DNA of 51,992 nt from a virus: the IMG/VR virus record IMGVR_UViG_3300011270_000008, positions 1 to 51,992 of that record. The stretch is one strand, 5' to 3'. Position numbers and translations under genes: made by a program. The notes below the pieces were generated by a model. The model had not been told where the DNA came from, searched no databases, and was given only the letters and a program-made list of their open reading frames with translations. Each line of letters starts with the position of its first letter. Position 1 is the stretch's first letter. This document shows, piece after piece, positions 242 through 49,801 of the stretch.

Positions 242-1981
242 GTGCAGACGGCAGAGTCCAGCCGTCTACCGTGGGTTGACTCTTGGCACATGGAGACTCC
301 CGCGCCGGGCCAGCTCATTACTCGTTACAACGAGGCCCGCGCTGAGCACACGGTCGACTTCTTCCGCAAGCACCTCAAGCACACAAAAGGAAGATGGCGG
401 GGGGCACCGTTCATCCTCGAAGACTGGCAGGCCGACGACATCATCCGGCCTCTGTTCGGCATGGAGCGTCTCACCGACGAAAGCCTGTGGGTGCGCCAGT
501 ACCGCAAGGCGTACATCGAGCTCCCCAAGAAGACGGGGAAGTCTGAGCTCGGCGCTGGGATCGCCGTCTATGCCCTCTACGCCGACGGCGAGGGGGGCCC
601 GGAAGTCTTCAGTGTAGCGTGCGACAAGAAACAGGCTGGCTACGTGTTCAACGTGGCAGGAGACATGGTGGAGCAGAATCCTGTCCTGCGGAAGCGCAGC
701 ACGGTCAACCGATCCCGCATTGCCCACCACGGCGTCATCTGGGATCGCCGCGGCAACGGCGTCTACAAGGTGCTCCCCGGTGATGTCCCCAGCATCGACG
801 GGATCAACCCGTCCGTAGTCATTCTCGACGAGCTTCACCGCCAGCCGGCCAGGGAGCTCGCCGACCTTCTCGACCAGTCCTTCGGCGCCCGTGATGAGCC
901 GCTCTACGTCCTCCTCAGCACCGCTGGCTTCGATGAGCCTGGCCATGTCCAGTGGGAACTTCACAACTATGCCTTAGACGTCGTTCGAGGCGTCATTGAA
1001 GACCCCTACCTTTTCGTCTACATGAGATTCTGCTCCCCCGAAGAGACCGAAGGCGACAAGTGGCGCGACGAGAAGCTCTGGAAACGTGTCAACCCAGCTT
1101 TGACGAGCTTCAATCCCCGGGCCATTGACGAGATGCGCCGGGTGGCCGCCGAAGCTGCCCGCTCGCCGGCCAAGGTGGTCAGCTTCAAACGGCTGTACCT
1201 GAATGTTCACCTGCCCCGGGCAGCCGAGCGCACCGACAAGCTGGTCACGCTCGAGGCGTGGGACCAGGCCGCCGGCATCCGCAAGGATCTTGACGAGCTG
1301 GCCGGCCGCACCTGCTACGGGGGGCTCGACCTCGCCGGCAGCGTTGACGTGAACGCTCTGATCGGGCTGTTCCCCAACGAGTCTGGCACCTGCCCGGAGT
1401 CCGGCTGCCAAGGCTCGAAAGAGACCTGCTACCACCTGCTGGCCCGTTTCTGGGTGCCCGAAGAGGCCTTCGGCGAACAGGCCCGCGAGTGGGCCAAGCC
1501 GCTCAAGGAGCAACTGGCCAACTGGGGCCGCGAGGGGTGGCTGACCGTGCTGCCCGGCCGGGTGATCGATGACCGGGACATCCAGAGCGAGATCGACCTG
1601 TGGGCCCGGACAGTCAACCTCATCCGGCTCTCGAAGGATCCCTGGCAGTCCAAGCAGCTCGGCGTGCTGCTGCGGGAGGAGTACGACCAGCTCGACGTCT
1701 ACGACCTGGCGCAGACCTTCGCCAAGCTGGGGGAGCCGACCGACCTGTTCATCCGCCTCGTGCTCGCCGGGCGGATTCACCACGGCGGCAACCCCGTCCT
1801 GCGCTGGATGGTGGGCAACGCCATCGCCGCCAAGGACTCGGGCGGCAACCAGAAGCCCGACCGTAAACGCTCAGCGGGCAAGATCGACGGCGTGGCGGCC
1901 GCCGTGAACGCTCTCGCAGCGGCGACGAAACCGGATGAGGAGGGGGAGGTTTGGGCTATGGCGGTGGTGAAGAGCCGCTGA
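242..1981 (+). CDS. terL: terminase large subunit
   Basis: ATP-driven DNA packaging motor and headful or cos nuclease, HK97-like (Terminase_1) type, 579 residues. The ATPase has a Walker A-like ELPKKTGKSE at about 93-102 and Walker B VVILDE at 192-197. The nuclease half begins at YGGLDLAGS (359-367), with Asp363 as the likely first metal ligand, and ends with the acidic motif KIDGVAAAV (547-555). A small Cys-rich insert (C384, C389, C396) in the nuclease half is unusual. The GTG at 242 is the first possible start, because TAG at 236-238 closes the frame. ATG 290 is an alternative; neither has a clear Shine-Dalgarno. The portal does not follow; it lies at 48.3 kb. Confidence 0.95.
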   Translation: MQTAESSRLPWVDSWHMETPAPGQLITRYNEARAEHTVDFFRKHLKHTKGRWRGAPFILEDWQADDIIRPLFGMERLTDESLWVRQYRKAYIELPKKTGKSELGAGIAVYALYADGEGGPEVFSVACDKKQAGYVFNVAGDMVEQNPVLRKRSTVNRSRIAHHGVIWDRRGNGVYKVLPGDVPSIDGINPSVVILDELHRQPARELADLLDQSFGARDEPLYVLLSTAGFDEPGHVQWELHNYALDVVRGVIEDPYLFVYMRFCSPEETEGDKWRDEKLWKRVNPALTSFNPRAIDEMRRVAAEAARSPAKVVSFKRLYLNVHLPRAAERTDKLVTLEAWDQAAGIRKDLDELAGRTCYGGLDLAGSVDVNALIGLFPNESGTCPESGCQGSKETCYHLLARFWVPEEAFGEQAREWAKPLKEQLANWGREGWLTVLPGRVIDDRDIQSEIDLWARTVNLIRLSKDPWQSKQLGVLLREEYDQLDVYDLAQTFAKLGEPTDLFIRLVLAGRIHHGGNPVLRWMVGNAIAAKDSGGNQKPDRKRSAGKIDGVAAAVNALAAATKPDEEGEVWAMAVVKSR

Positions 1982-2689: not shown

Positions 2690-4066
2690 GTGGTTAGCCT
2701 CTTCGCCAACATGCCGGATGCCGTGAGATACCGCCAGCGACCCGTCCGCATGCGCGCGCTGCCCGACGTCGGCGAAGGTGCGGTCGAGGCCGTCGCCAGC
2801 GTCTACGGCCTCACCTACGACGTGATGGACTGGTTTTGGGAGACCAAGGAGCGCATTGCCCCCGGCGCCTTCACGGACTCGATCGGCGAGGATCCGCTGG
2901 CCCCCTACTTCTGGATGCACGGCTGGGAGCAGGGACCGGTCGGCGACGGGACGTGGACCGACTCGAGCACTGAGCTGCGCAACCGGGGCCAGCTCTACAT
3001 CGACGACGGCCTGGCCCTGCGGATCTGGCGCGGCCTCAAGTCTGGCGCCATCAAGGAGTGGAGCATCGGCTACCTGGCCCTCGACACCCACGTCGAAAAG
3101 GAGGATGGCGAGGAAGTCGAGGTGGTCGACAAGGGCCAGCTCGTGGAACTGTCGTCGTGCGTCATGGGGGCCAATCCCGGCACGGAGACGATCAGTGTGC
3201 GCCGGGCCGGCGGGAGGCTCGCCAAACGCGGGCTGACCCGTTCCGGTCACGGCGCACTACTCCTACCACGGGGGGCGCGTCGGCGTGACGTGGACACCGC
3301 CGACGACGATGACCCGGGGGCCTGCGCTCAAGCCGTCGATGCTGCCATTGACGAGGCCCTCGACCTCTTCGCAGCCGGGGAAACCGAGCAGGCGGTAGCG
3401 CTCGTACAGGCCGCCGACCTCTCGGTTGACAAGCTGCTGGACATCCTCGGCGTGCCTGATCCCGACGAAGACGGGCAGACCAGCGTCTACCGGGCCAAGG
3501 GGCGCCGCAGGGTCACCCCGAACGTCGGCGGCAAGGCGCCTCGCAAGCGGGGGGCCATCCCGCCTCACTCCACGGCGACGGTTGAACAGGCGTGGGACGG
3601 TGCCGAGCAAGAGAAGAACCTGAACAACGAAGACGGCGAGAAGGAATACCGCCAGATGTACGCCTGGGTCGACTCCGACGCCGATCCCGACACCAAGAGC
3701 GCCTACAAGTTCCCGCACCACATGGTCGACGGCAACGGCACCGTCGGGGCGGCCAATACCTCGGCCTGTTCGTCAACCATCGCATCGCTGAACGGGGGCC
3801 GCGGGGGATCGTCCATTCCCGACGGTGACCGCCAGGGAGTCTGGGACCACGTCGCCAAGCACCTGACCGACGACGGCCTGGAAGCGCCTGAACTGCGCAC
3901 GCTCGAGGACATCGAAGCGGAGAAGAACCGCAGCGCCCCGAGCCCCCTTACCCTCAGCGACCAAGAAGTGCACCGGATGTTCGTCGCCGTGAGGCAGAAC
4001 CTATTGACCGAAGACAAGGCCGTGGAAGCTCTCCAGCGGGCCTACCGACCCGAAAGGAGGAGCTGA
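2690..4066 (+). CDS. prohead protease with C-terminal extension
   Basis: Capsid maturation protease, HK97 gp4/U35 type, 458 residues. The N-terminal protease domain (about 15-180) carries the likely catalytic His77 (WMHGWEQG) and Ser125 (KEWSIGY). After an acidic and basic linker, a second domain (about 320-415, from YRQMYAWVDSD to GVWDHVAKHL) resembles a module often fused to phage proteases and scaffolds, so the C-terminus may act as scaffold. The start is GTG 2690, just after an in-frame TAG at 2675; ATG 2711 is possible. It ends with a strong GGAGG for the capsid gene, which follows directly. Confidence 0.9.
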   Translation: MVSLFANMPDAVRYRQRPVRMRALPDVGEGAVEAVASVYGLTYDVMDWFWETKERIAPGAFTDSIGEDPLAPYFWMHGWEQGPVGDGTWTDSSTELRNRGQLYIDDGLALRIWRGLKSGAIKEWSIGYLALDTHVEKEDGEEVEVVDKGQLVELSSCVMGANPGTETISVRRAGGRLAKRGLTRSGHGALLLPRGARRRDVDTADDDDPGACAQAVDAAIDEALDLFAAGETEQAVALVQAADLSVDKLLDILGVPDPDEDGQTSVYRAKGRRRVTPNVGGKAPRKRGAIPPHSTATVEQAWDGAEQEKNLNNEDGEKEYRQMYAWVDSDADPDTKSAYKFPHHMVDGNGTVGAANTSACSSTIASLNGGRGGSSIPDGDRQGVWDHVAKHLTDDGLEAPELRTLEDIEAEKNRSAPSPLTLSDQEVHRMFVAVRQNLLTEDKAVEALQRAYRPERRS

Positions 4067-5359
4067 ATGGCGGTCATCACCGCAGACGTGCTACGCCAGA
4101 TGTCCGAGTCAATCGAGGCTGACCAGAGGGAAGAGGCCCGGCTGCGGGCGGCTGCCGACAAGCGCAAGGGCGAGATCGCCGCCTCGGTGGACGATCCGAT
4201 GGTCCTGCTGCGGGACGCCCACATCTTCGAAGAGGTCGACACGATGTACAAGCCGGCTGATGCGCTCCGGAGCAGGATCGTCCTCGCCCAGGCGAACTAC
4301 GGTCGACTCGCCGGGACCCCCGATACCAAAGAGGGGCCGGTTCCCGCCAACGGCTCAACCGCAACGTCTCAGGGCACCTTCTCACCTTTGGAATACGGCG
4401 AGCGGTTCACGGCGAGCGATGCCTACGTGAAGTTCCGCACCGCCGTTCAGTCCGGTGCAAAGCTTGAGGTGGCCTGGGGTTCCGAGTTCAAGAACGGTGT
4501 CGAGGTCATGACCCGTAAAGAGGCCAAGGACTCCCACTTCGGCGTTCGCCAGCGTGCTGTCACCCTGACCAACCTGCCCTGGTCGCAGCGCCAGCCCGAC
4601 CAGTTCGTTCCCCTGGCCGCCCGTCCGGTGGTCCTGCTGGACATGATCTCGATGGCGACGACCGACTCAGTGAGCATCGACTATCAACAGCAGACGGCGA
4701 GGACGGACGCCGCGGCGGCCACTGCCTACGGCACGTTGCTCCCCGAGCACTCGCTGACCGTCATCAACGTCAACGTCGTCGTGAGCCGCATCGGTGCCTA
4801 CACGTACGTGACCGAAGCGCAGCTACAGGACGAAGGCCAGCTCCAGGACCTGATCGACGCAGACTTGATGGGCGACTACGAGCGCTCAGTGGAGTACCAG
4901 ATCGTCAACGGCACGGGTACGCCATGGAACGGCATCCTCAACACGTCGGGGATCAACACGCAGGCGAGGGGCACGGACACCTGGCTCGATTGCGTACACA
5001 AGGGGATCACCCAGATCCGGCTGGCCTTCGGCGAGCCCAATGCCGTCGGTCTGCACCCGACCGACCTCCAGAGCCTCACCTTGCAGAAAGACTCGCTGGG
5101 CAACTACCTCTTCAAGATCGGCGAGCCGCCGAACATCTGGGGTCTCCGGCCAGTGCCCACCCCCGTCTTTCCCCAGGGAACGGGTGTTGTGGCCGACTGG
5201 CGCTGGGCAACGATCTGGACTCGTCAGGGAGTCGCCGTGATGGCCAGTTCGGAGCATGCGGACCTTTTCCTCCGGGGTCAGATCGCGGTGAAAGCCGAGG
5301 GACGTGCGGCTTTTGGTTGCAAGCGTCCTGTCTGGTTCACGAGTCTTACGGGGCTCTGA
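4067..5359 (+). CDS. major capsid protein, HK97 fold
   Basis: Main shell protein, 430 residues. The first ~105 residues are charged and helical (EADQREEARLRAAADKRKGE), as in the delta domain that is removed by the protease. The remainder has the HK97 gp5 pattern: a VPLAARPVVLLDMIS spine segment, a TYVTEAQLQDEGQLQDLIDADL helix region, NGTGTPWNGIL, and a C-terminal AVMASSEHADLFLRGQIAVKAEGR strand set. The start is secure: ATG sits behind GGAGGAG. It follows the protease immediately, the normal order. Confidence 0.95.
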   Translation: MAVITADVLRQMSESIEADQREEARLRAAADKRKGEIAASVDDPMVLLRDAHIFEEVDTMYKPADALRSRIVLAQANYGRLAGTPDTKEGPVPANGSTATSQGTFSPLEYGERFTASDAYVKFRTAVQSGAKLEVAWGSEFKNGVEVMTRKEAKDSHFGVRQRAVTLTNLPWSQRQPDQFVPLAARPVVLLDMISMATTDSVSIDYQQQTARTDAAAATAYGTLLPEHSLTVINVNVVVSRIGAYTYVTEAQLQDEGQLQDLIDADLMGDYERSVEYQIVNGTGTPWNGILNTSGINTQARGTDTWLDCVHKGITQIRLAFGEPNAVGLHPTDLQSLTLQKDSLGNYLFKIGEPPNIWGLRPVPTPVFPQGTGVVADWRWATIWTRQGVAVMASSEHADLFLRGQIAVKAEGRAAFGCKRPVWFTSLTGL

Positions 5360-5361
5360 GC

Positions 5362-5442
5362 ATGGCCGTCATCCTGATCGACCTCCCATGGTCCGACCGC
5401 TCAGGCGGCAAGCCCAAACCCAAGCCCAAGAAAGGACGCTGA
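5362..5442 (+). CDS. 26-residue Lys/Pro-rich peptide
   Basis: ATG 5362 starts two bases after the capsid stop and reads MAVILIDLPWSDRSGG followed by a KPKPKPKKGR tail. A hydrophobic N-terminus and a basic Pro-Lys tail recall a second tiny basic protein at 50563-50652. The function is unknown. It is too short for certainty, but it fits the tight spacing of its neighbours. Confidence 0.5.
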   Translation: MAVILIDLPWSDRSGGKPKPKPKKGR

Positions 5443-5444
5443 GC

Positions 5445-5924
5445 ATGGCAGTGGAAATCGACACCACGGGCCTCACTCGCATCCAGCGAGTGGAAAGTCC
5501 CGCAGAGGGAATCCGCGATGAACAGGTCGCCACGGTGCGGCTTCACGCCGAGCTCCCCGATGGCCGGACGATCATGATCATGCCTACCGGCGACATCCGG
5601 GGCGTGGTGCCCAAGGGAGCGAAGATCATCTGGCACGAGCGCATGAGCCAGAGCCCCCAGGATGTCGCCCTGGCCGGTTCTGTTCCGACGTCGGGGGCCG
5701 AGGTAGCCGTGCCGATCGCCGGCCTGCTCGGAGACAACTACACCAACGCCCGTCTCGACGAGATGGAGCGGGAGATTGCCAGCCTCAAGGAAGAGCTGGC
5801 CCGCCGCAACCCAGAGGAGACCCTCGCTGAGCGGACAGCCGAGCTCGAGGAACTCAAGGCCGCCCGGGTGCGCACCACCCTCAAGCAACCGGGACCGGAC
5901 GTGGCCCCGTCGCCCAAGAAGTAA
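5445..5924 (+). CDS. head-region protein with C-terminal coiled coil
   Basis: 159 residues, ATG 5445 behind AAAGGA. The N-terminal half looks beta-rich (VATVRLHAELPDGRTIMIMPTG). Residues 105-145 form a clear heptad helix (LDEMEREIASLKEELARR), and the tail is Pro/Lys-rich. Its position between capsid and a decoration-like protein suggests a head accessory or decoration role. I do not recognise the family. Confidence 0.75.
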   Translation: MAVEIDTTGLTRIQRVESPAEGIRDEQVATVRLHAELPDGRTIMIMPTGDIRGVVPKGAKIIWHERMSQSPQDVALAGSVPTSGAEVAVPIAGLLGDNYTNARLDEMEREIASLKEELARRNPEETLAERTAELEELKAARVRTTLKQPGPDVAPSPKK

Positions 5925-5933
5925 GGAGGCCCC

Positions 5934-6773
5934 ATGCCCCAGTCGACAGCACTCGGCCGCTGGATCAACCGGCCAGCCTTCACGCTCAAGGCCGCGGGGG
6001 CCGAGACCGCGAGTACCGCGGGGGCTTGGGTCGACCTTGGTGACGTCCCCGCTGGCGAGATCGACGTCGCTGTCACCGCGGTGGCTGGTACCACTCCTAC
6101 CCTGCTGGTGGATCTCTACGGCTCGCCCACCGGGACGACCCGTTCCGTCACCGACGGCGTCACCTTCAACACGTCCACGTCGGTCGGTAGTGCCACAGCG
6201 CTATTTACCGCCGCCGACGTTGGATCGAACATTGCCGGGGTCGGCATCCCGCTCGCCGACTACATCGCCTCCGTCATCGTCGCCGTGCCTGCCGCCACCG
6301 TGACCAACAAGGCCCTCACGACCAACGTGGCAACGCTGACGACCGCTGCGGCGCACGGCATTTCCGTCGGTCAGGTGGTCGTCGTGGCGGGTGTCGATGC
6401 GACGTTCAACGGCACCTACGTCGCCACGGCGGGGACTACCGGAAGCACCCTCACCTATGCCGATACGGCGTCCAACGTCTCCTCTACTGCTGCCACAGGC
6501 ACCGCAACGGGTATCTCCACGGCAGTCCTGGGGTCCGCGGCGACGGCTACCGCCTCTGCCGTCACGCTGACCATCTCGCAGGGCTTCAAGATCGGCACCA
6601 TAGGAGCCGTCGCCTACGTCGACTCCGGGGGGTCCGACCCGACGACCATCGCCGCCGTGGGGACCTTCCGAGCCGTCTTCGCCCTGCCCCGCTACGTCCA
6701 GTACCGATCCCGTATCACCGGATCTGCCGGCCAGTCCTTCACCTACAGCGTGACCCTGGACGCCTCCTGGTGA
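5934..6773 (+). CDS. head fibre or decoration-like protein
   Basis: 279 residues, rich in Thr, Ala, Ser and Val. ATG 5934 lies behind AAGGAGG. The middle section contains a module common in phage surface proteins (AAHGISVGQVVVVAGVD, then FNGTYVATAG, then LTYADTAS), and the rest looks like beta-sandwich repeats. Location after the capsid gene suggests a capsid decoration or head-fibre protein. Its stop overlaps the next start. Confidence 0.75.
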   Translation: MPQSTALGRWINRPAFTLKAAGAETASTAGAWVDLGDVPAGEIDVAVTAVAGTTPTLLVDLYGSPTGTTRSVTDGVTFNTSTSVGSATALFTAADVGSNIAGVGIPLADYIASVIVAVPAATVTNKALTTNVATLTTAAAHGISVGQVVVVAGVDATFNGTYVATAGTTGSTLTYADTASNVSSTAATGTATGISTAVLGSAATATASAVTLTISQGFKIGTIGAVAYVDSGGSDPTTIAAVGTFRAVFALPRYVQYRSRITGSAGQSFTYSVTLDASW

Positions 6774-9814: not shown

Positions 9815-10227
9815 TGGCCGGAACCCTCTACATCGCCAACTATGCCGCCTTCCGGGCTGACTTGAAGAAGGCTGCGGGGAGCACCAAGGAAGCCACCGCG
9901 GCGATGAAGAAAGCAGGCGCGCCCGTGCTGGCGAAGGCGGCTGGCTATGCGCCAAAAGGCTCACCGGAAACTGGCGACAAGCATGGCGGTCAACTTGCGG
10001 GATCGGGAAGAATCCTCGCCGGCGGCAACAAGGGGCGAGTCGTGTTCAAGCCCGTCTATGCGCCGGGGGCTGAGTTCGGCTCCCACGGCCGCTGGCAGGG
10101 CTTCGAGAAGTGGGGCGCCACCCCCCGGTTCGGCTACCGGGCGCTCAACGAGTCGGCGGACCAGATCCTGCAGATCGTCACTGAAGAGCTGCTCCCCGTC
10201 ATGACCGCCTACGGCTGGTTCGCCTGA
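9814..10227 (+). CDS. HK97 gp10-like tail/neck component
   Basis: 137 residues, TGATG-coupled to the upstream and downstream genes. An N-terminal helix (FRADLKKAAGSTKEATAAMKK) is followed by a beta region with EFGSHGRWQGFEKWGATPRF and a C-terminal helix, which matches HK97 gp10-type tail completion proteins. Its place after the chaperones is unusual, since such genes usually precede the tail tube gene. Confidence 0.65.
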   Translation: MAGTLYIANYAAFRADLKKAAGSTKEATAAMKKAGAPVLAKAAGYAPKGSPETGDKHGGQLAGSGRILAGGNKGRVVFKPVYAPGAEFGSHGRWQGFEKWGATPRFGYRALNESADQILQIVTEELLPVMTAYGWFA

Positions 10228-12461
10228 TGGCAGGCGGTGGGACTAAGCAGCTCATCATCACCTACGGGGCCAACGGGGATGAGATCAAGCGCGTTCTCAA
10301 GGATATCGACACTTCGCATGAGAAGACGACCTCCAAGTTCGCCGCGCTGGGTGGTTCCTTCGGGATGCTCAAGGGCAATTTAGGTGAGCTGGCCGCCGGT
10401 TTCGGCCCTTTGACCGAAGCTACCTCAAAAGCCCGAGAGGGACTCGACCACATCAAGGAGAAGTTCGGCGAACTCGAAGGCGGCGCGAAGAAGGCGGGCG
10501 CCGTCATGGTGGGGGCGGGGGCGGCGTTGACTGGCATTGGTGCCATCGGTGTGGCCATCGGCGAGAAACAGGAACAGGCCAGCAAGACTCTTGAGGTGGC
10601 CGTGAAGAACACGGGCGGCTCCTACGAGGAGTTCGCCGGCAAGATCGACAAGGCAGTCACGGCTGGCGAGAAGAACGCCCACGGGGCTGCCGACACGAAG
10701 GAGGCCCTTGCCAAGCTGACGACGGCCTTGGGCGACACGGGCAAGGCCACCGATGAGATGGGCCTCGTGAGCGAGGTGGCAGCCAAGAAGCACATTTCCC
10801 TGGCAGACGCGGCTGATGTGGTGCTCAAAATCCACCAGGGGGCTGGCAAGGCCCTCAAGCAATTTGGCATCGATGCCAAGGCTGCCGGGGGCGCTGCGAC
10901 CGAACTGGCGGCAGCGCAGAAGGCCGACGAGGCTGAGGTGAAGATTGCCGAGGCTGCGAACGTAGCCGCTGCGGCCACTCAGGAGAAGCTCGTAACCAAG
11001 TACGGGCTGACGGCGGCCGGGGCGAAGGAACTAGCGGCGGCCCACGCTGCCGTCAATGCCGCCATGGCGAGCGGGGACCCGAACAAGGTGCTGGCGGCCG
11101 AGAGCCAGCTTGAGAACCAGACGTACAAGCTCTCGGCGGGGTTGAAGATGAACCAGTCGGATACGGACCTGCTAGCGAAGACCCGCTATGACCTCGACCA
11201 GAAAACCGCGCCGCTTGAGGCGGCAGATACCCGGCTGGCCAAGGCTCAGGATGCTGCCTCAAAGGCCACAGCGCAGGGCTCGTTCGAGAGTCAGGTCATG
11301 GCGAAGATCCACGGGACGGCAGCGGCTCAGGCGGACACCTTCGGCGGCAAGATCGCAGCCCTGAAGACTCACGTCCTGGACATGGCGGGGGCGATGGGGG
11401 CCAAGCTGGGGCCCGCGATCACCACGGCCGGCCCGCTCATCATGGGTGTCGGCGCCCTCATGGAATCCAACCTAATTCCCCAGATACTCACCATCGGCGG
11501 CGAGGTTGTCGGCACGGCTGCCATGTGGGTCAGCTCGTGGCTGTCGATGGCGGCAGGCACGGTCTCGGCCATGATCGGCATCGACATCTCGACTGGGGGT
11601 CTGCTGCTGATCCTCGCTGGCCTCATCGTTGCCGTGATCCTCGTTTGGAAGAATTGGGACACGATCTGGGGGTTCATCAAGGGCATTGTCACGTCGGCCT
11701 TCGACTGGATCAAACGTCACCTGGCGCTCATCTCGCTGCTGTTCGGCCCCATCGGGCTCATCATCTACGAGTTCGCCCACCACTGGCAGGGCGTGTGGCA
11801 GGCAATCACCGACGCGCTCAACTTCGCCTGGGGCCTGATCCAGCCCGTCATCCACTTCATCGGCAACATCCTGCACGACGTGATCGTGGTGCCGGCCTTG
11901 GCGATGGTTGCCGTGTGGTCCGTAGTCTGGTCCTTCATGGGGAAGGTGGTCAGCGATGCGTGGGGCGTTCTCAAGCCCATCGTGACCACCATCGGCGGCA
12001 TCATCCACTGGCTTGTGAACACCGAGCTCGAGGGCCTCAAGACTGCCCTGATGGTGCTCGCTGCTGTCTGGAACGTGATCTGGAACGGCATCCAGGCGGT
12101 GATCCAGGCTGTGTGGAAGGTCGTCGAGCCCATCGTCCATGCGATCACCCAGGGCGTCTCGGATGTGGCGGGGGCAATGAAGGCCATCGGGGGCGCGGCC
12201 GGTTCTCTCGGCCACTTCCTCGGCTTTCAAGCTGGCGGCACCGTCCCTGGAGCCGTGGGTGCCCCCATGCTGGCCGTGGTCCACGGGGGTGAGCGGATCA
12301 GCCCCGTGGGCTCGGCGGGCACGGGTGGCGGGGGCGGGGGAGACATCTACGTCAACGTCGTCGTGCAGGGCAGCGTCACCAGCGAGCGCAACCTGACCAA
12401 CACGATCTACGAGGGTCTCCTTGAGTTCAAGCGGCGCCAGGGAGCGCTGGGGCTCGCCTGA
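10227..12461 (+). CDS. tape measure protein
   Basis: 744 residues, the longest uniform helical protein in the tail module. It sets tail length and probably helps DNA pass the membrane. The first 430 residues are Ala/Lys-rich helix; a hydrophobic segment with LLLILAGLIVAVILVWK and further membrane-like stretches follow (about 455-590). The end is a Gly-rich tail. It starts in TGATG overlap with the gp10-like gene and directly follows the chaperones. A long reading frame on the opposite strand here is a composition artefact. Confidence 0.93.
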   Translation: MAGGGTKQLIITYGANGDEIKRVLKDIDTSHEKTTSKFAALGGSFGMLKGNLGELAAGFGPLTEATSKAREGLDHIKEKFGELEGGAKKAGAVMVGAGAALTGIGAIGVAIGEKQEQASKTLEVAVKNTGGSYEEFAGKIDKAVTAGEKNAHGAADTKEALAKLTTALGDTGKATDEMGLVSEVAAKKHISLADAADVVLKIHQGAGKALKQFGIDAKAAGGAATELAAAQKADEAEVKIAEAANVAAAATQEKLVTKYGLTAAGAKELAAAHAAVNAAMASGDPNKVLAAESQLENQTYKLSAGLKMNQSDTDLLAKTRYDLDQKTAPLEAADTRLAKAQDAASKATAQGSFESQVMAKIHGTAAAQADTFGGKIAALKTHVLDMAGAMGAKLGPAITTAGPLIMGVGALMESNLIPQILTIGGEVVGTAAMWVSSWLSMAAGTVSAMIGIDISTGGLLLILAGLIVAVILVWKNWDTIWGFIKGIVTSAFDWIKRHLALISLLFGPIGLIIYEFAHHWQGVWQAITDALNFAWGLIQPVIHFIGNILHDVIVVPALAMVAVWSVVWSFMGKVVSDAWGVLKPIVTTIGGIIHWLVNTELEGLKTALMVLAAVWNVIWNGIQAVIQAVWKVVEPIVHAITQGVSDVAGAMKAIGGAAGSLGHFLGFQAGGTVPGAVGAPMLAVVHGGERISPVGSAGTGGGGGGDIYVNVVVQGSVTSERNLTNTIYEGLLEFKRRQGALGLA

Positions 12462-26920: not shown

Positions 26921-27086
26921 CCCCGTTGCGAAGGACATGGTAGTGCGAGACGGGGCCAAGCGGGAGCGGCTGCGGGTGCTCGAGGTGTTGCCTGGCGGGG
27001 TGGCGCGGTGTGTGGACTCGGACCAGCAGACGCACTTCCTGCCGACGGAGCGGCTGAGGGTGGTTTCCAGAAAGGGGAGAAAGTGA
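26913..27086 (+). CDS. 57-residue basic protein
   Basis: ATG 26913; ends in GTGA overlap with the helicase gene. Strand-rich and basic (GAKRERLRVLEVLPGGVARC, then RLRVVSRKGRK). Could bind nucleic acid; unknown. Confidence 0.5.
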   Translation: MTSPVAKDMVVRDGAKRERLRVLEVLPGGVARCVDSDQQTHFLPTERLRVVSRKGRK

Positions 27087-29380
27087 GCGTTGCGTATGAA
27101 GACTTCCTCGCCGCCAAGCTGGTCACGGCGGGGTCGCACGGAATCACCATCCCGGCCGACGATCTGAACCCCGTGCTGTTCGACTGGCAGCGGGAAGTCA
27201 CGGCGTGGGCCCTGCAGCGGGGCCGGGCGGCCATCTTCGCAGCCTGCGGACTCGGCAAGACCTTCATGCAGGTTGAGTGGGCGCACCGGATCACGGAGGC
27301 AACCGGTGGCCGGGTGCTTATCCTCGCTCCCCTCGCCGTGGCGCATCAGACGATCAAGGAAGCGGCCAAGCTGGGGCTCACCGTTGAGTACGCCCGTCGG
27401 CAGGACGGCTCGGACTGCCCTCTCGTCATCACAAACTACGAGTGCCTTGCCGACTTCGATCCCTCGCAGTGGATCGGTGTCGTGCTGGACGAGTCGAGCA
27501 TCCTCAAGTCGTTCACGGGAAAGACGAAGCGGGCGCTGCTCGAGGCCTTCGCCGAGACGCCTTACCGCCTCGCCTGCACCGCCTCGCCGGCTCCGAACGA
27601 TCACATGGAGCTCGGGAATCACGCCGAGTTTCTGGGGATCATGGAACGCCCGGAAATGCTGGCCCGGTGGTTCAAGCACGACTCGGGCAACACGAGCGTG
27701 TATCGGCTCAAGAAGCACGGCGAGCGGGATTTCTGGCGCTGGGTCAGCTCGTGGGCAGTGTGCGCCGAGAAGCCCTCGGACTTGGGTGACTACGAGGATG
27801 GCGGGTTTGCCCTGCCCCCGCTGGTCATCGAAGGGCACCTGGTGGCCGACCCCGCCCGGGCCCACGACCGGGGCAAGCTGTTCCTGGGGGACGCCGCGCC
27901 CTCGGCAACGGAGATGTGGTCCGACAAGCGGGAGACGGCCGAGGACCGTTGCGTCATGGCCTACGGCATCGTGGCCGAGCAACCGGACAGGCCATGGACG
28001 GTGTGGTGCGAGACGAACCATGAGGCTGATCTGCTGGCGAAGTTGCTGCCCGGTTCCGTCGATGTGCGGGGGTCGGACTCGCTCGAGTCCAAGGAACGCA
28101 AGCTGGATGCCTTCGCCGATGGAGAGGCCTCGGTCATCGTGACCAAGCCCAGCATCGCCGGATTCGGACTCAACTGGCAGCACTGCTCGAACGTGGTGTT
28201 CGTCGGGCTCACCTACTCGTTCGAGAAGCTCTACCAGGCTATTCGCCGATCGTGGCGCTACGGGCAGACCAGGCCCGTCACGGTGCATCTCATCAGCGCT
28301 GAGTCCGACCAGGGCATCGTGGCAGCCGTGGAGCGCAAACAGGAGGAGTACGACGTCATGGTGAACCGGATGGTTGAGGCCACCAAGGAATTCGGGCTAG
28401 CCGAGCGGCAGAGTCACCGGGCACTCACGGTCGTCGCTGAAGACGAGTACACGGGGGAGGACTGGACGCTGCGGCTGGGTGACAACGTGCCGATCACCCG
28501 CAGTCTCCCATCCGATTCCGTGGGACTGTCGGTCTTCTCGCCTCCGTTCGCAAACCTCTTCGTTTACTCGGATTCGGTGGCCGACATGGGCAACTGCGCT
28601 TCGGTCTCGGAGTTCTTCGAGCACATGGACTACTTGATCCCCGAGTTGTACCGGATCACGAAGCCGGGCCGGATCTGCTGCGTCCACTGCTCCGAAATCC
28701 CTCGGCAGAAGGGCGTTGATGGGGTCATGGGGATCTACGACTTCCCCGGAGACCTGATCCGTCACTTCGAGGCCGCTGGGTGGGTTCACGTCAGCCGGGT
28801 TACGGTGTGGAAGGACCCCGTGGTTGAGGTTTCCCGCACGAAGGCGATGGGGCTGCTTCACAAGAGCTTCACCGAACGCCGGGAAGCCGTTCGGGTGGGG
28901 ATGCCCGACTACGTTCTTGTGTTCCGCAAGTGGACTGACGAGATGCCCGACCGGCAGGTCGCCGGCGGCATGGCGCCTGTCGGCGGGTACATCGGCGAGG
29001 ACGGGCCGAGCATGTGGAACAGCGAGCGGGACTACTCCATTCAGACGTGGCAGAAGTACGCCTCGCCGGTCTGGATGGATGTTCGTCAGGGTCGGGTGCT
29101 GGACTACGCTGGGGCTCGGGAGCAGCAGGACGAGCGCCACATCTGCCCGCTTCAACTGGATGTGATCGAGCGATGTGTGTTCCTGTGGAGCAACCCCGGA
29201 GACCTTGTGCTGGACCCCTACGCTGGCATCGGGTCGACGGGCTACGTGGCCCTACAAACGGGCCGCAGGTTCATCGGTGCCGAGTTGAAGCGGAGCTACG
29301 CTGAGCAGGCCGTGAAGCATCTTGAGCGGGCCGTGCGGGACAAGGATCAGGGCAAGCTCTTTCCGGACGACCCGTCGTGA
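27083..29380 (+). CDS. helicase-DNA methyltransferase fusion
   Basis: 765 residues from GTG 27083 behind GGAGAAA. The N-terminal SF2/SNF2-like helicase (1-440) has Walker A AACGLGKTF (53-61), a DESS box (VVLDESSI, 133-140), TASPAPNDH and motif VI YQAIRRSWRYGQ (384-395). The C-terminal methylase (455-750) has FSPPFANLF (485-493) before DPYAGIGSTG (711-720), the beta-class order of amino-MTases. It may remodel and modify phage DNA to evade restriction. No restriction gene is seen nearby. Confidence 0.88.
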   Translation: MSVAYEDFLAAKLVTAGSHGITIPADDLNPVLFDWQREVTAWALQRGRAAIFAACGLGKTFMQVEWAHRITEATGGRVLILAPLAVAHQTIKEAAKLGLTVEYARRQDGSDCPLVITNYECLADFDPSQWIGVVLDESSILKSFTGKTKRALLEAFAETPYRLACTASPAPNDHMELGNHAEFLGIMERPEMLARWFKHDSGNTSVYRLKKHGERDFWRWVSSWAVCAEKPSDLGDYEDGGFALPPLVIEGHLVADPARAHDRGKLFLGDAAPSATEMWSDKRETAEDRCVMAYGIVAEQPDRPWTVWCETNHEADLLAKLLPGSVDVRGSDSLESKERKLDAFADGEASVIVTKPSIAGFGLNWQHCSNVVFVGLTYSFEKLYQAIRRSWRYGQTRPVTVHLISAESDQGIVAAVERKQEEYDVMVNRMVEATKEFGLAERQSHRALTVVAEDEYTGEDWTLRLGDNVPITRSLPSDSVGLSVFSPPFANLFVYSDSVADMGNCASVSEFFEHMDYLIPELYRITKPGRICCVHCSEIPRQKGVDGVMGIYDFPGDLIRHFEAAGWVHVSRVTVWKDPVVEVSRTKAMGLLHKSFTERREAVRVGMPDYVLVFRKWTDEMPDRQVAGGMAPVGGYIGEDGPSMWNSERDYSIQTWQKYASPVWMDVRQGRVLDYAGAREQQDERHICPLQLDVIERCVFLWSNPGDLVLDPYAGIGSTGYVALQTGRRFIGAELKRSYAEQAVKHLERAVRDKDQGKLFPDDPS

Positions 29381-47445: not shown

Positions 47446-47507
47446 GAGCGCACCTACGCCGCCCGGTTCGGGCGTGACTGCCCCCGGAGTCACTAACTTA
47501 GGCAAGG

Positions 47508-47580
47508 TAGAATGGAAGGGCAAGTGAAGCCCCCGCAGCGCCGTAACGCTCGGGGGCATGGTCCGAACCTATGAAGGAGG
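47508..47580 (+). promoter_or_regulatory. leader of the array unit: -10 box, hairpin, strong RBS
   Basis: TAGAAT (47508-47513) may be a -10 box; no clear -35 is seen. The leader hairpin is 11 bp with one bulge: GCCCCCG/CGGGGGC and AGCG/CGCT (47529-47557). AAGGAGG at 47574-47580 is a near-perfect ribosome site six bases before GTG 47587. The leader shares AAGTGAAGCCCC and the hairpin plan with the leader at 29.84 kb. Confidence 0.55.
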
Positions 47581-47586
47581 TTGGAC

Positions 47587-47955
47587 GTGGTCAAGTCTAC
47601 GCAAGCGGCTGCCCTGACGGCTGTTGCCGGTGGTCCTGAGACCCCGAGCAATGACGGCGCCGAGATCATCCAGTACGCTGAACCGGCGTTGGTCCGAGTC
47701 ACCCTCGAAGGGTCGTCGGCGCTGTTGTTTCACCGGTGGTCGGTGGAGTCTGTGGCCGAGAAATCGGCCGCTGCGAAGAACTCCCGGGCCAAGAAAACGG
47801 ACGATGTGGAGTCCTACGTTTGGCGCAACGATGACGGGGCCGAATACGTCCAGCCCCGAGACCTGTTGGAGACGCTGACGCTGGCTGGCCGAGTGATCGG
47901 CATCGGAGACTTCCGGCCAACCTACGGCCGGTTCAACATCGTGCGATTCGAGTAG
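47587..47955 (+). CDS. small protein heading the pentamer array
   Basis: 122 residues from GTG 47587, six bases behind AAGGAGG; the TTG at 47581 touches the RBS and is unlikely. A strand-like start (PALVRVTLEGSSALLFHRW) is followed by a Lys-rich helix, DGAEYVQPRDLLETLTLAG and a Gly-rich end, RVIGIGDFRPTYGRFNIVRF. The VRVxLEG strand, the PxDLxETL helix and the final GIG..R..YGRF loop recall RAMP (Cas5/6/7-like RRM-fold) proteins, but this copy is short. The link is inference. The array starts five bases after its TAG. Confidence 0.75.
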   Translation: MVKSTQAAALTAVAGGPETPSNDGAEIIQYAEPALVRVTLEGSSALLFHRWSVESVAEKSAAAKNSRAKKTDDVESYVWRNDDGAEYVQPRDLLETLTLAGRVIGIGDFRPTYGRFNIVRFE

Positions 47956-47960
47956 TGCTC

Positions 47961-48280
47961 AGGCGTGGTTGAGTGAGGCCCGGCGTGCCAAGGCCCGGTT
48001 CGGTACGGCTCGCAGCGGCAAGGTAGGGCTTGGCGAGCCGGGGCAAGGCAAGGTTCGGCGTGGCGCGGTCCAGTTGGGTACGCCTCGGCGCGGTGGGGTT
48101 TTGGTGCGGTGAGGACAAGTCACGGCTTGGCGAGGTGCGCCGCCGTTTGGTGCGGTGCGGTAAGGCTGGCCGAGGCAAGATCGGGGTTTGGTACGGGATT
48201 CGGTAGTCCGCTTTTAGGTCCGGCTGGACGTGGTGTGTCAGGGTACGCTCGGGCATGGCGGGGTTGGGCGTGGTTAGGGA
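47961..48280 (+). repeat. NGGYN pentamer array, about 64 units
   Basis: Reading from 47961 in steps of five gives AGGCG, TGGTT, GAGTG, AGGCC, CGGCG and so on. Of the first 28 units, 22 have GG at positions 2-3, and every one of those 22 has C or T at position 4. The phase slips at about 48100 (GG moves two bases later by 48124) and returns by 48201, where units such as CGGTA, AGGTC, CGGCT and TGGTG continue to 48280. Units differ from each other, so this is a periodic pattern and not a simple satellite. No open frame crosses it. Confidence 0.9.
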
Positions 48281-48282
48281 AC

Positions 48283-48322
48283 AAACGGAGGGAGCGGAAT
48301 CTTTACTCCGCTCCCTCCGTTT
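48283..48322. terminator. 16-bp perfect inverted repeat ending the array
   Basis: AAACGGAGGGAGCGGA (48283-48298) pairs exactly with TCCGCTCCCTCCGTTT (48307-48322) around loop ATCTTTAC. It is a strong intrinsic terminator in either direction, closing the array unit before the portal gene. The T-run is part of the stem. Confidence 0.85.
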
Positions 48323-48346: not shown

Positions 48347-49801
48347 ATGAGACGCATGCGAGTGATGACCCCACAAGGCCTCTCTACCGTCCGCAAACGT
48401 GGCTTTCTGGACGATGTGTCCTACGGCGGCCCGTTCTCCCTCAGCGGCCAGGGCCAGGTCCCGCTGGCAAGCAAGCCAACCGGCGAGCAGATGTGGGCCA
48501 GCTACAGCGACATCTACAGGCACAATCCCTGGGTCTACGGCGCCGTGCAGACGCTCATCCGAGGCCTCGCCCCACTCCCCCTGCAGGCATACCAGTACCT
48601 CCCCGACGGTGACCGCCAGATCGTCCGCGGCGATGTCAACGTCTCGCCCGGCCCCCTGTCCGACCAGCAGCGCCTCGCCAACTTGCTGCGCCTGCCCCGT
48701 ATCCGCACATCCCGCAATCGCCTCGCCCGCCGCCTCTTCTGGGACTACTTCGTCAAGGGCAACGCTTTGGTCGAGAAGGAGCGTGACCCCCAGACCGGCA
48801 AGGTCGTTGCCCTGCGCTACTGGCCCTGGCGCTACGCCCTGCCCGTCCGCGCGGCCCAGTTCGGCTTGGTGTACGGCGGCACCGGGACCGGCCTCGGCCC
48901 CATCCTCCACTTCGTCGTCCAGGAGGCGCCAAGCTGGACCTGGCGCCAGATCCTGCTAGCCGACTGCATCCACTTCCACTGGGGTGATAGCGAGGACGGC
49001 GAGCTCGGCGTGAGCCCGCTCGAGCCGATCGCCAGCTCCCACGGCCTGCAGAACGCCATCAACCGCCAGCTCCTCTCCTGGTTCCAAAACAGTGCTAGCC
49101 CGAGCCTGCACGTCAAGATCGCCAAGAAGCCGACCGACCAGGAGGAGCGCTGGCTGCGGGACAGCTTCACCCGGGACTATGGCGGTCCGGAGAACGCTGG
49201 CAACGTGATCTTCTCGACCGGCGAGCCGACCCCCCTGTCGACCACCCCCGCCCACAATGCCATCGTCGAGATCACCCAGATCACCAGGGAGGAAGTCTTC
49301 GCCGCCTACTCGATGCCGCCAGTCTTGATGGGCGTGTTGGAAAAGGCAGCGCTGGGCAACGTCAAGGAGCTCCGCAGCTTCTACCTTCGAGACCTCGTTG
49401 GCCCCCATGCGACCACCTTCACTGATGAGCTCGATGCCCAGCTCGTCACCGACGTCGCCGAGCCCAACTGGTCCGGATGCTTCACCTCCTTCGACATGGA
49501 CAGCCGCCTGCGCCCCGACCTCGAGGCCCTCGTTCAGGCCCACAAGCTGATGATCGGCAGCAGCATGGAGACACCGGACGAGGCCCGCCAGGACCTGAAC
49601 AAGCCGCAGATGGGCGGCGCTGCGACCAAGCTGTGGGCCGCCTTGAACACCGGGCCAATCGAATCCATCGCCGCTCCCAAGAAGGAAAAGCCGCTGCCAG
49701 CCCCCAAGCCCGTCGCCGATGGTGAGGTAGTCGTGGTCCCCGACGAAGGCACGACCGGCTTGGGCTCGCCGCAGTCCAACGGCCACACTGCCAATGTCTG
49801 A
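48347..49801 (+). CDS. portal protein, HK97 family
   Basis: 484 residues. Forms the 12-subunit ring through which DNA is packaged. The stretch WASYSDIYRHNPWVYGAVQT, DYFVKGNALVEKERD, IHFHWGDSEDGELGVSPLEP and ITREEVFAAYSMPPVLMGVL are typical of Phage_portal proteins. Start ATG 48347, with ATG 48356 and 48365 as options; no clear RBS. It is separated from the large terminase by about 2.4 kb across the window ends if the genome is circular, and follows the array terminator, not the terminase. Confidence 0.93.
   Translation: MRRMRVMTPQGLSTVRKRGFLDDVSYGGPFSLSGQGQVPLASKPTGEQMWASYSDIYRHNPWVYGAVQTLIRGLAPLPLQAYQYLPDGDRQIVRGDVNVSPGPLSDQQRLANLLRLPRIRTSRNRLARRLFWDYFVKGNALVEKERDPQTGKVVALRYWPWRYALPVRAAQFGLVYGGTGTGLGPILHFVVQEAPSWTWRQILLADCIHFHWGDSEDGELGVSPLEPIASSHGLQNAINRQLLSWFQNSASPSLHVKIAKKPTDQEERWLRDSFTRDYGGPENAGNVIFSTGEPTPLSTTPAHNAIVEITQITREEVFAAYSMPPVLMGVLEKAALGNVKELRSFYLRDLVGPHATTFTDELDAQLVTDVAEPNWSGCFTSFDMDSRLRPDLEALVQAHKLMIGSSMETPDEARQDLNKPQMGGAATKLWAALNTGPIESIAAPKKEKPLPAPKPVADGEVVVVPDEGTTGLGSPQSNGHTANV

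Follow-up and report, generated by a model that had tools for sequence, protein, structure and literature searches.

A literature search for a gene with an array of this kind returned one matching description, that of the Viral Interference Programmable Repeat (VIPR) systems, made known in 2026 in a preprint (PMC13142463; bioRxiv 2026.04.26.720920). VIPR systems consist of the Vipr protein, an ancestral RAMP, and of vrRNAs made of alternating GGY and NN; double-stranded DNA is read by the NN pairs, each unit skipping one base, and rival phages are repressed by the complex (PMC13142463). The evidence was obtained on other phages than the one described here, by RNA sequencing, pull-down and reporter assays (PMC13142463). 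The vrRNAs carry 9-16 repeats and a 3' tail, staggered overlapping arrays being reported as well, and the loci typically include a vap accessory gene (PMC13142463). The VIPR of Escherichia phage SUSP1 belongs to type II (PMC13142463).

The stretch of DNA analysed here, hereafter the window, is the entire IMG/VR record IMGVR_UViG_3300011270_000008 (51,992 bp, 65% G+C), whose head and tail genes are of the tailed-phage type. The small gene, the pentamer array and the hairpin that it carries (Table 1) are read here as a phage VIPR locus, in which a vipr gene precedes a vrRNA array that is closed by a 3' hairpin, with a probability of about 0.93.

Table 1. Position, strand and supporting evidence of the features of the window.
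Feature	Position	Strand	Evidence or remark
Terminase gene	242-1981		
Protease and capsid genes	2690-5359		
Tape measure gene	10227-12461		
GC-rich leader hairpin, upstream of the gene	47529-47557	+	Direct reading, fold
Ribosome-binding site AAGGAGG	47574-47580	+	6 nt before the GTG start, direct reading
Truncated vipr gene, 122 aa, GTG start	47587-47955	+	Translation, PHROG_4652, family profile
Junction of an in-frame 88-codon (264 nt) deletion relative to the closest relative, L004	47838/47839	+	Protein alignment, DNA comparison
Glycine-rich loop GIGDFRPTYGRF, RAMP G-loop motif, retained	47899-47934	+	G/D/R/P/G columns invariant in three family alignments
GGY/NN pentamer array, predicted vrRNA-encoding region, 62 units	47962-48276	+	Lag-5 identity, unit reading, pattern matches, array score
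Perfect 16-bp inverted repeat, 8-nt loop	48283-48322	+	Arms 48283-48298 and 48307-48322
Portal gene	48347-49801		Small gene/array/hairpin unit directly upstream

The product of the small gene matches PHROG_4652 (E=1.5e-8) and aligns with the family model in two pieces, model positions 16-83 and 173-209 of 213 (E=1.2e-43); its C-terminal part also matches the SUSP1 Vipr (PDB 36pp; phmmer E=0.004). When a profile of 45 relatives was compared with the PDB, the same SUSP1 Vipr chain was matched at E=1e-38. As a positive control, the SUSP1 genome was analysed with the same model, which placed Vipr at 28477-29079 (E=5e-44), and with the same array detector, which found flanking arrays at 27892-27966 and 29172-29226 and so recovered the published locus. 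As for the fold, the full-length relative L016 was modelled at a pLDDT of 91.7, and this model matches type VII and Csm RAMP subunits with a Foldseek probability of 1.00; a full-length member of the family models as a Csm3/Cas7-like RAMP fold. This fold is common to the full-length relative and the RAMPs of Class 1 CRISPR (Csm3, type VII Cas7), but those systems have a six-base period, a CRISPR array and cas genes, whereas the window has a five-base period and neither of the other two. No relative of the window protein was confirmed in bacterial genomes.

The association between gene and array was analysed from both sides. A search of viral contigs with the window protein alone yielded 32 loci, with proteins of about 205 aa sharing a conserved core. 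A GGYNN array was found in 31 of them, versus none of 26 unrelated phage loci, and these arrays lie on the gene's strand, in most cases no more than some tens of bases from the gene start or stop. The reverse search, with ten GGYNN units alone, gave at least 120 loci in viral contigs. Among the matches listed, a family member was encoded in 71 of 120 array-found loci according to a narrow model, made from the protein-found set, and in 87 of 120 according to a broad model, built partly from such array-found loci. That the array and its upstream gene form one unit had been anticipated in the original prediction, and the test proposed there, whether NGGYN arrays of varied sequence go with homologues of the protein starting at 47587, is positive in 31 of the 32 loci. 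The gene and the array of the window belong to this family, and share its order, strand and spacing.

A control pattern, GGRNN, also gave at least 120 loci, which, among the matches listed, comprised 100 low-complexity repeats and 20 arrays with diverse NN. Vipr was found in none of the 100 low-complexity loci. As for the GGA/NN arrays with diverse NN, a Vipr relative was present in the same contig in 15 of the 20 among the matches listed (L193, L199, L212, L215, L216, L242, L244, L247, L257, L267, L273, L277, L285, L288 and L290), so that the array occurs in a GGA/NN form too. This form may be the 'related consensus' mentioned in the preprint (PMC13142463).

In the window, the array begins just past the small gene and stops just short of the 16-bp hairpin. 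Lag-5 identity is 0.458 in 47956-48283, which no other part of the window exceeds. Dinucleotide shuffles give 0.308 +/- 0.024 (z 6.3), with a highest value of 0.396 in 2000 shuffles; the identity is also in excess at lags 10, 15, 20, 25 and 30. The array score reaches 69, compared with 10 or less across the first 47.4 kb of the window, and the pattern (GGYNN)x5 + GGY has a single match in the window and none in 100 shuffles. Over the 62 units, position 1 is a G in 57, position 2 a G in 47 and position 3 a C or T in 61; bases are mixed at the two remaining positions. The five-base period claimed earlier is confirmed by this autocorrelation against shuffled sequence, and direct reading agrees with the GG counted in 22 of the first 28 units, each of the 22 followed by a pyrimidine. 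The period had also been called strict, which applies to the first 28 units (block A, 47962-48101); further on, the register is kept only blockwise, with four phase jumps, of +1 after 48097, 48108 and 48179 and of +2 after 48190. The successive phase blocks count 28, 4, 13, 2 and about 15 units, after which comes the strong hairpin. No internal tails were recognisable inside the 62-unit run, and the array is a single run with phase jumps, unlike the distinct RNAs of 9-16 repeats described for VIPR, which counts against the VIPR reading. Upstream of the leader hairpin, at 47501-47510, stand two further GGYNN units (GGCAA GGTAG), found identically at 48017-48026 in the array; they are possibly the remnant of an upstream array.

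Reading the array as a coding region or as a slippage microsatellite is hardly credible. One minus-strand frame does run stop-free through it, but the other five frames contain stops and the phase jumps are of one or two bases. Moreover, the NN positions hold 1.95-2.00 bits across all arrays. In the pooled arrays, GG is constant at 87-89% and position 3 is C or T at 94%, a figure to be read with a detector which itself favours GGY. In the related pair L020 and L021, conservation extends to the gene and to the tails separating the arrays, the NN bases having turned over, and a change of NN with GGY kept is also at odds with both readings. The array had rightly been held to be non-coding and no slippage satellite, its period being kept by selection. 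The view that it is not CRISPR stands as well: on reading the array, identical repeats with unique spacers were absent, and no cas genes were found beside it. In four other loci (L048, L028, L103 and L121), the arrays can be read as long frames devoid of stops, whose repetitive translations resemble WRGKARRG or, on the other strand, LPCPALP; such frames could be mis-annotated as phage proteins.

An array acting at the DNA level, either as a set of binding sites or as a G-quadruplex former, with no guide RNA involved, would account for the recurrence of GG pairs on one strand at five-base intervals. Both possibilities had been raised in the original prediction, and we consider them very improbable, as they leave unexplained the conserved pyrimidine and the linkage with a RAMP-fold protein. 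The variable NN, the strand that the array shares with the gene and the direct experiments made with SUSP1 (PMC13142463) argue against them too.

Concerning the structures on either side of the gene and array, the predicted leader hairpin exists, yet its region (47495-47590, 96 nt) folds only modestly better than shuffles (z -1.7). It may be a 5' UTR structure or the end of an upstream transcript. The hairpin which follows the array is far stronger, at -32.1 kcal/mol (z -7.4). It had been described as a perfect terminator; the inverted repeat is indeed perfect over 16 bp, but only a short T run stands behind it and the terminator scan makes no call of a T-tract terminator at this position. It is likely the 3' end, or tail hairpin, of the predicted array transcript. 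Among the relatives, no generally conserved hairpin was seen directly behind the array (median z of 0.1 for arrays located downstream), which makes the one in the window a local feature. The Rfam search gave a weak chance match to this hairpin and nothing else.

Relative to the family model, the window protein lacks positions 84-172. Mapped on the L016 model, the gap takes in strand 79-82, helix 83-94 and all that follows as far as strand 156-163; on this model, the deleted part would correspond to helix 1, the thumb region and strands 2-3 of the RRM, with the thumb assigned from RAMP anatomy. The complete RRM core with thumb is present in L016 and not in the window protein, which keeps the first strand, the G-loop and the last strand, and whose own structure model is of low confidence (pLDDT 59, pTM 0.37). 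Because the deletion is in frame and the ribosome-binding site intact, the protein may be made. Deprived of this part of the RRM core, it would be impaired as an effector, and the truncated Vipr, alone, is probably no working Vipr. For this reason the locus is classed here as VIPR with a truncated Vipr rather than as a complete VIPR effector.

A fully working VIPR system, with a naturally reduced 122-aa Vipr which still packs along the RNA, is rather unlikely. The intact frame, ribosome-binding site, G-loop and first strand speak for it, as does the GGY fraction of the array, which at 0.71 falls inside the range of the relatives (0.67 in L004, 0.73-0.76 in L014). Nonsynonymous change in the gene (about 0.26-0.29) is also well below synonymous change (0.62-0.68), although this mostly reflects the time before the deletion. 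The loss of helix 1, the thumb region and RRM strands 2-3 weighs on the other side, together with the low confidence of the short-protein model, and none of the other Vipr relatives found here is similarly shortened. It is possible, if doubtful, that the deletion is an artefact of assembly and that the real phage has a full-length Vipr: the window locus is represented by one contig only, with no second copy, and the rest of the locus looks intact, but the join is exact and in frame, and a random collapse keeps the frame one time in three.

Judging from its sequence, the array looks as well kept as those of L004 and L014, with no clear extra decay. We find it fairly probable that the effector is dead, or dependent on an intact Vipr from elsewhere, the array being still recognisably maintained; the observations agree with a recent deletion, with an assembly error and with an array served by a Vipr of other origin. 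A more specific proposal, that the array works in trans, its vrRNAs loading onto an intact Vipr from a phage that is co-infecting or resident, or competing for that Vipr, so that the locus is a guide donor or decoy in VIPR conflicts, appears unlikely.

Compared with the SUSP1 VIPR, the window shares the protein family and GGY/NN arrays on the gene's strand. However, SUSP1 has several RNAs, each about 100 nt long and carrying a tail with a pseudoknot, and arrays on both flanks of its gene, whereas the window has one 62-unit block, a Vipr without 88 residues, and no recognised vap gene. The loci with long continuous arrays (L014, L085 and L130), together with L004, which has the closest protein, resemble the window in having dozens of units, some degenerate, which abut vipr. 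They differ from it by a full-length Vipr of about 205 aa and by arrays on one or both sides, the window array being downstream only. L028 has a 1.56-kb GGYNN array of about 310 units downstream of vipr (4678-6235), far above the 9-16 repeats per vrRNA. In L011, L012, L020 and L021, arrays of about 11 units upstream of vipr are parted by a conserved tail, GGAGCTGCTATGCAGCGT...GCGATGCGTAAGCATCA, and in L007 and L009 the arrays are bounded by the inverted pieces TTTCATTGGAAA and TTTTTCCAATGA. These two sets of loci would thus have different vrRNA end structures inside one close protein clade.

As for the neighbourhood of the small gene and array, no Pfam or PHROG match was obtained, the portal excepted. 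No vap gene was recognised beside the array, and the recurrent neighbour families have no member in the window. The recurrent neighbours of vipr loci, considered as accessory-gene candidates, were rejected, being replication genes and artefact frames read from the arrays. The portal protein revealed no close relatives of the window phage in the viral contig collection. Elsewhere in the window, at 27008-29380, a helicase and an N6/N4 DNA methyltransferase are fused in a single 790-aa protein.

By analogy with the members studied in the preprint (PMC13142463), from which the mechanism is taken, an intact system would work through Vipr, a small RAMP related to Cas7/Csm3, binding RNA with GGY/NN repeats. 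The constant GGY triplets would form the protein-bound scaffold and the variable NN pairs the guide, base-pairing with double-stranded DNA with one target base skipped per unit, and binding would silence genes of rival phages or prophages. The window array would give one or more predicted vrRNAs, whose end may be the hairpin at 48283-48322, and its NN bases would designate targets in phages that compete with this one. The first of the earlier hypotheses, a protein filament of five-base step on a non-coding RNA, is essentially what PMC13142463 reports for this family in other phages, except that the guide role of NN had been missed. Also overlooked were the scaffold role of GGY, the DNA target that NN would specify and the fact that the upstream gene is a truncated family member.

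Targets were sought with cores of 8 or 9 units, taken from three regions of the array, under a 1-nt skip rule and with exact matching, which covered few of the possible windows. Four cores found 3, 0, 8 and 15 loci in viral contigs, their flanking units agreeing at about chance, with no extended match, and one 9-unit core had no match in bacterial genomes. Within the local loci and the window itself, no match was convincing; perfect skip-3 matches were rejected as targets, being the array itself. With few windows covered and mismatches excluded, these scans do not demonstrate an absence of targets.

VIPR has been proposed as an ancestor of Class 1 CRISPR, with a non-contiguous guide code. The published linkage between gene and array receives independent support here, both from raw sequence read without bias and from two separate searches, one starting with the protein and the other with the array. 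VIPR having been known since 2026, the window locus is a further member, whose effector is probably decayed or dependent, and it adds a case where protein and array seem to differ in fate. Continued use of the array would imply that vrRNAs are able to work with a Vipr whose gene lies elsewhere; otherwise, the locus is a snapshot of decay.
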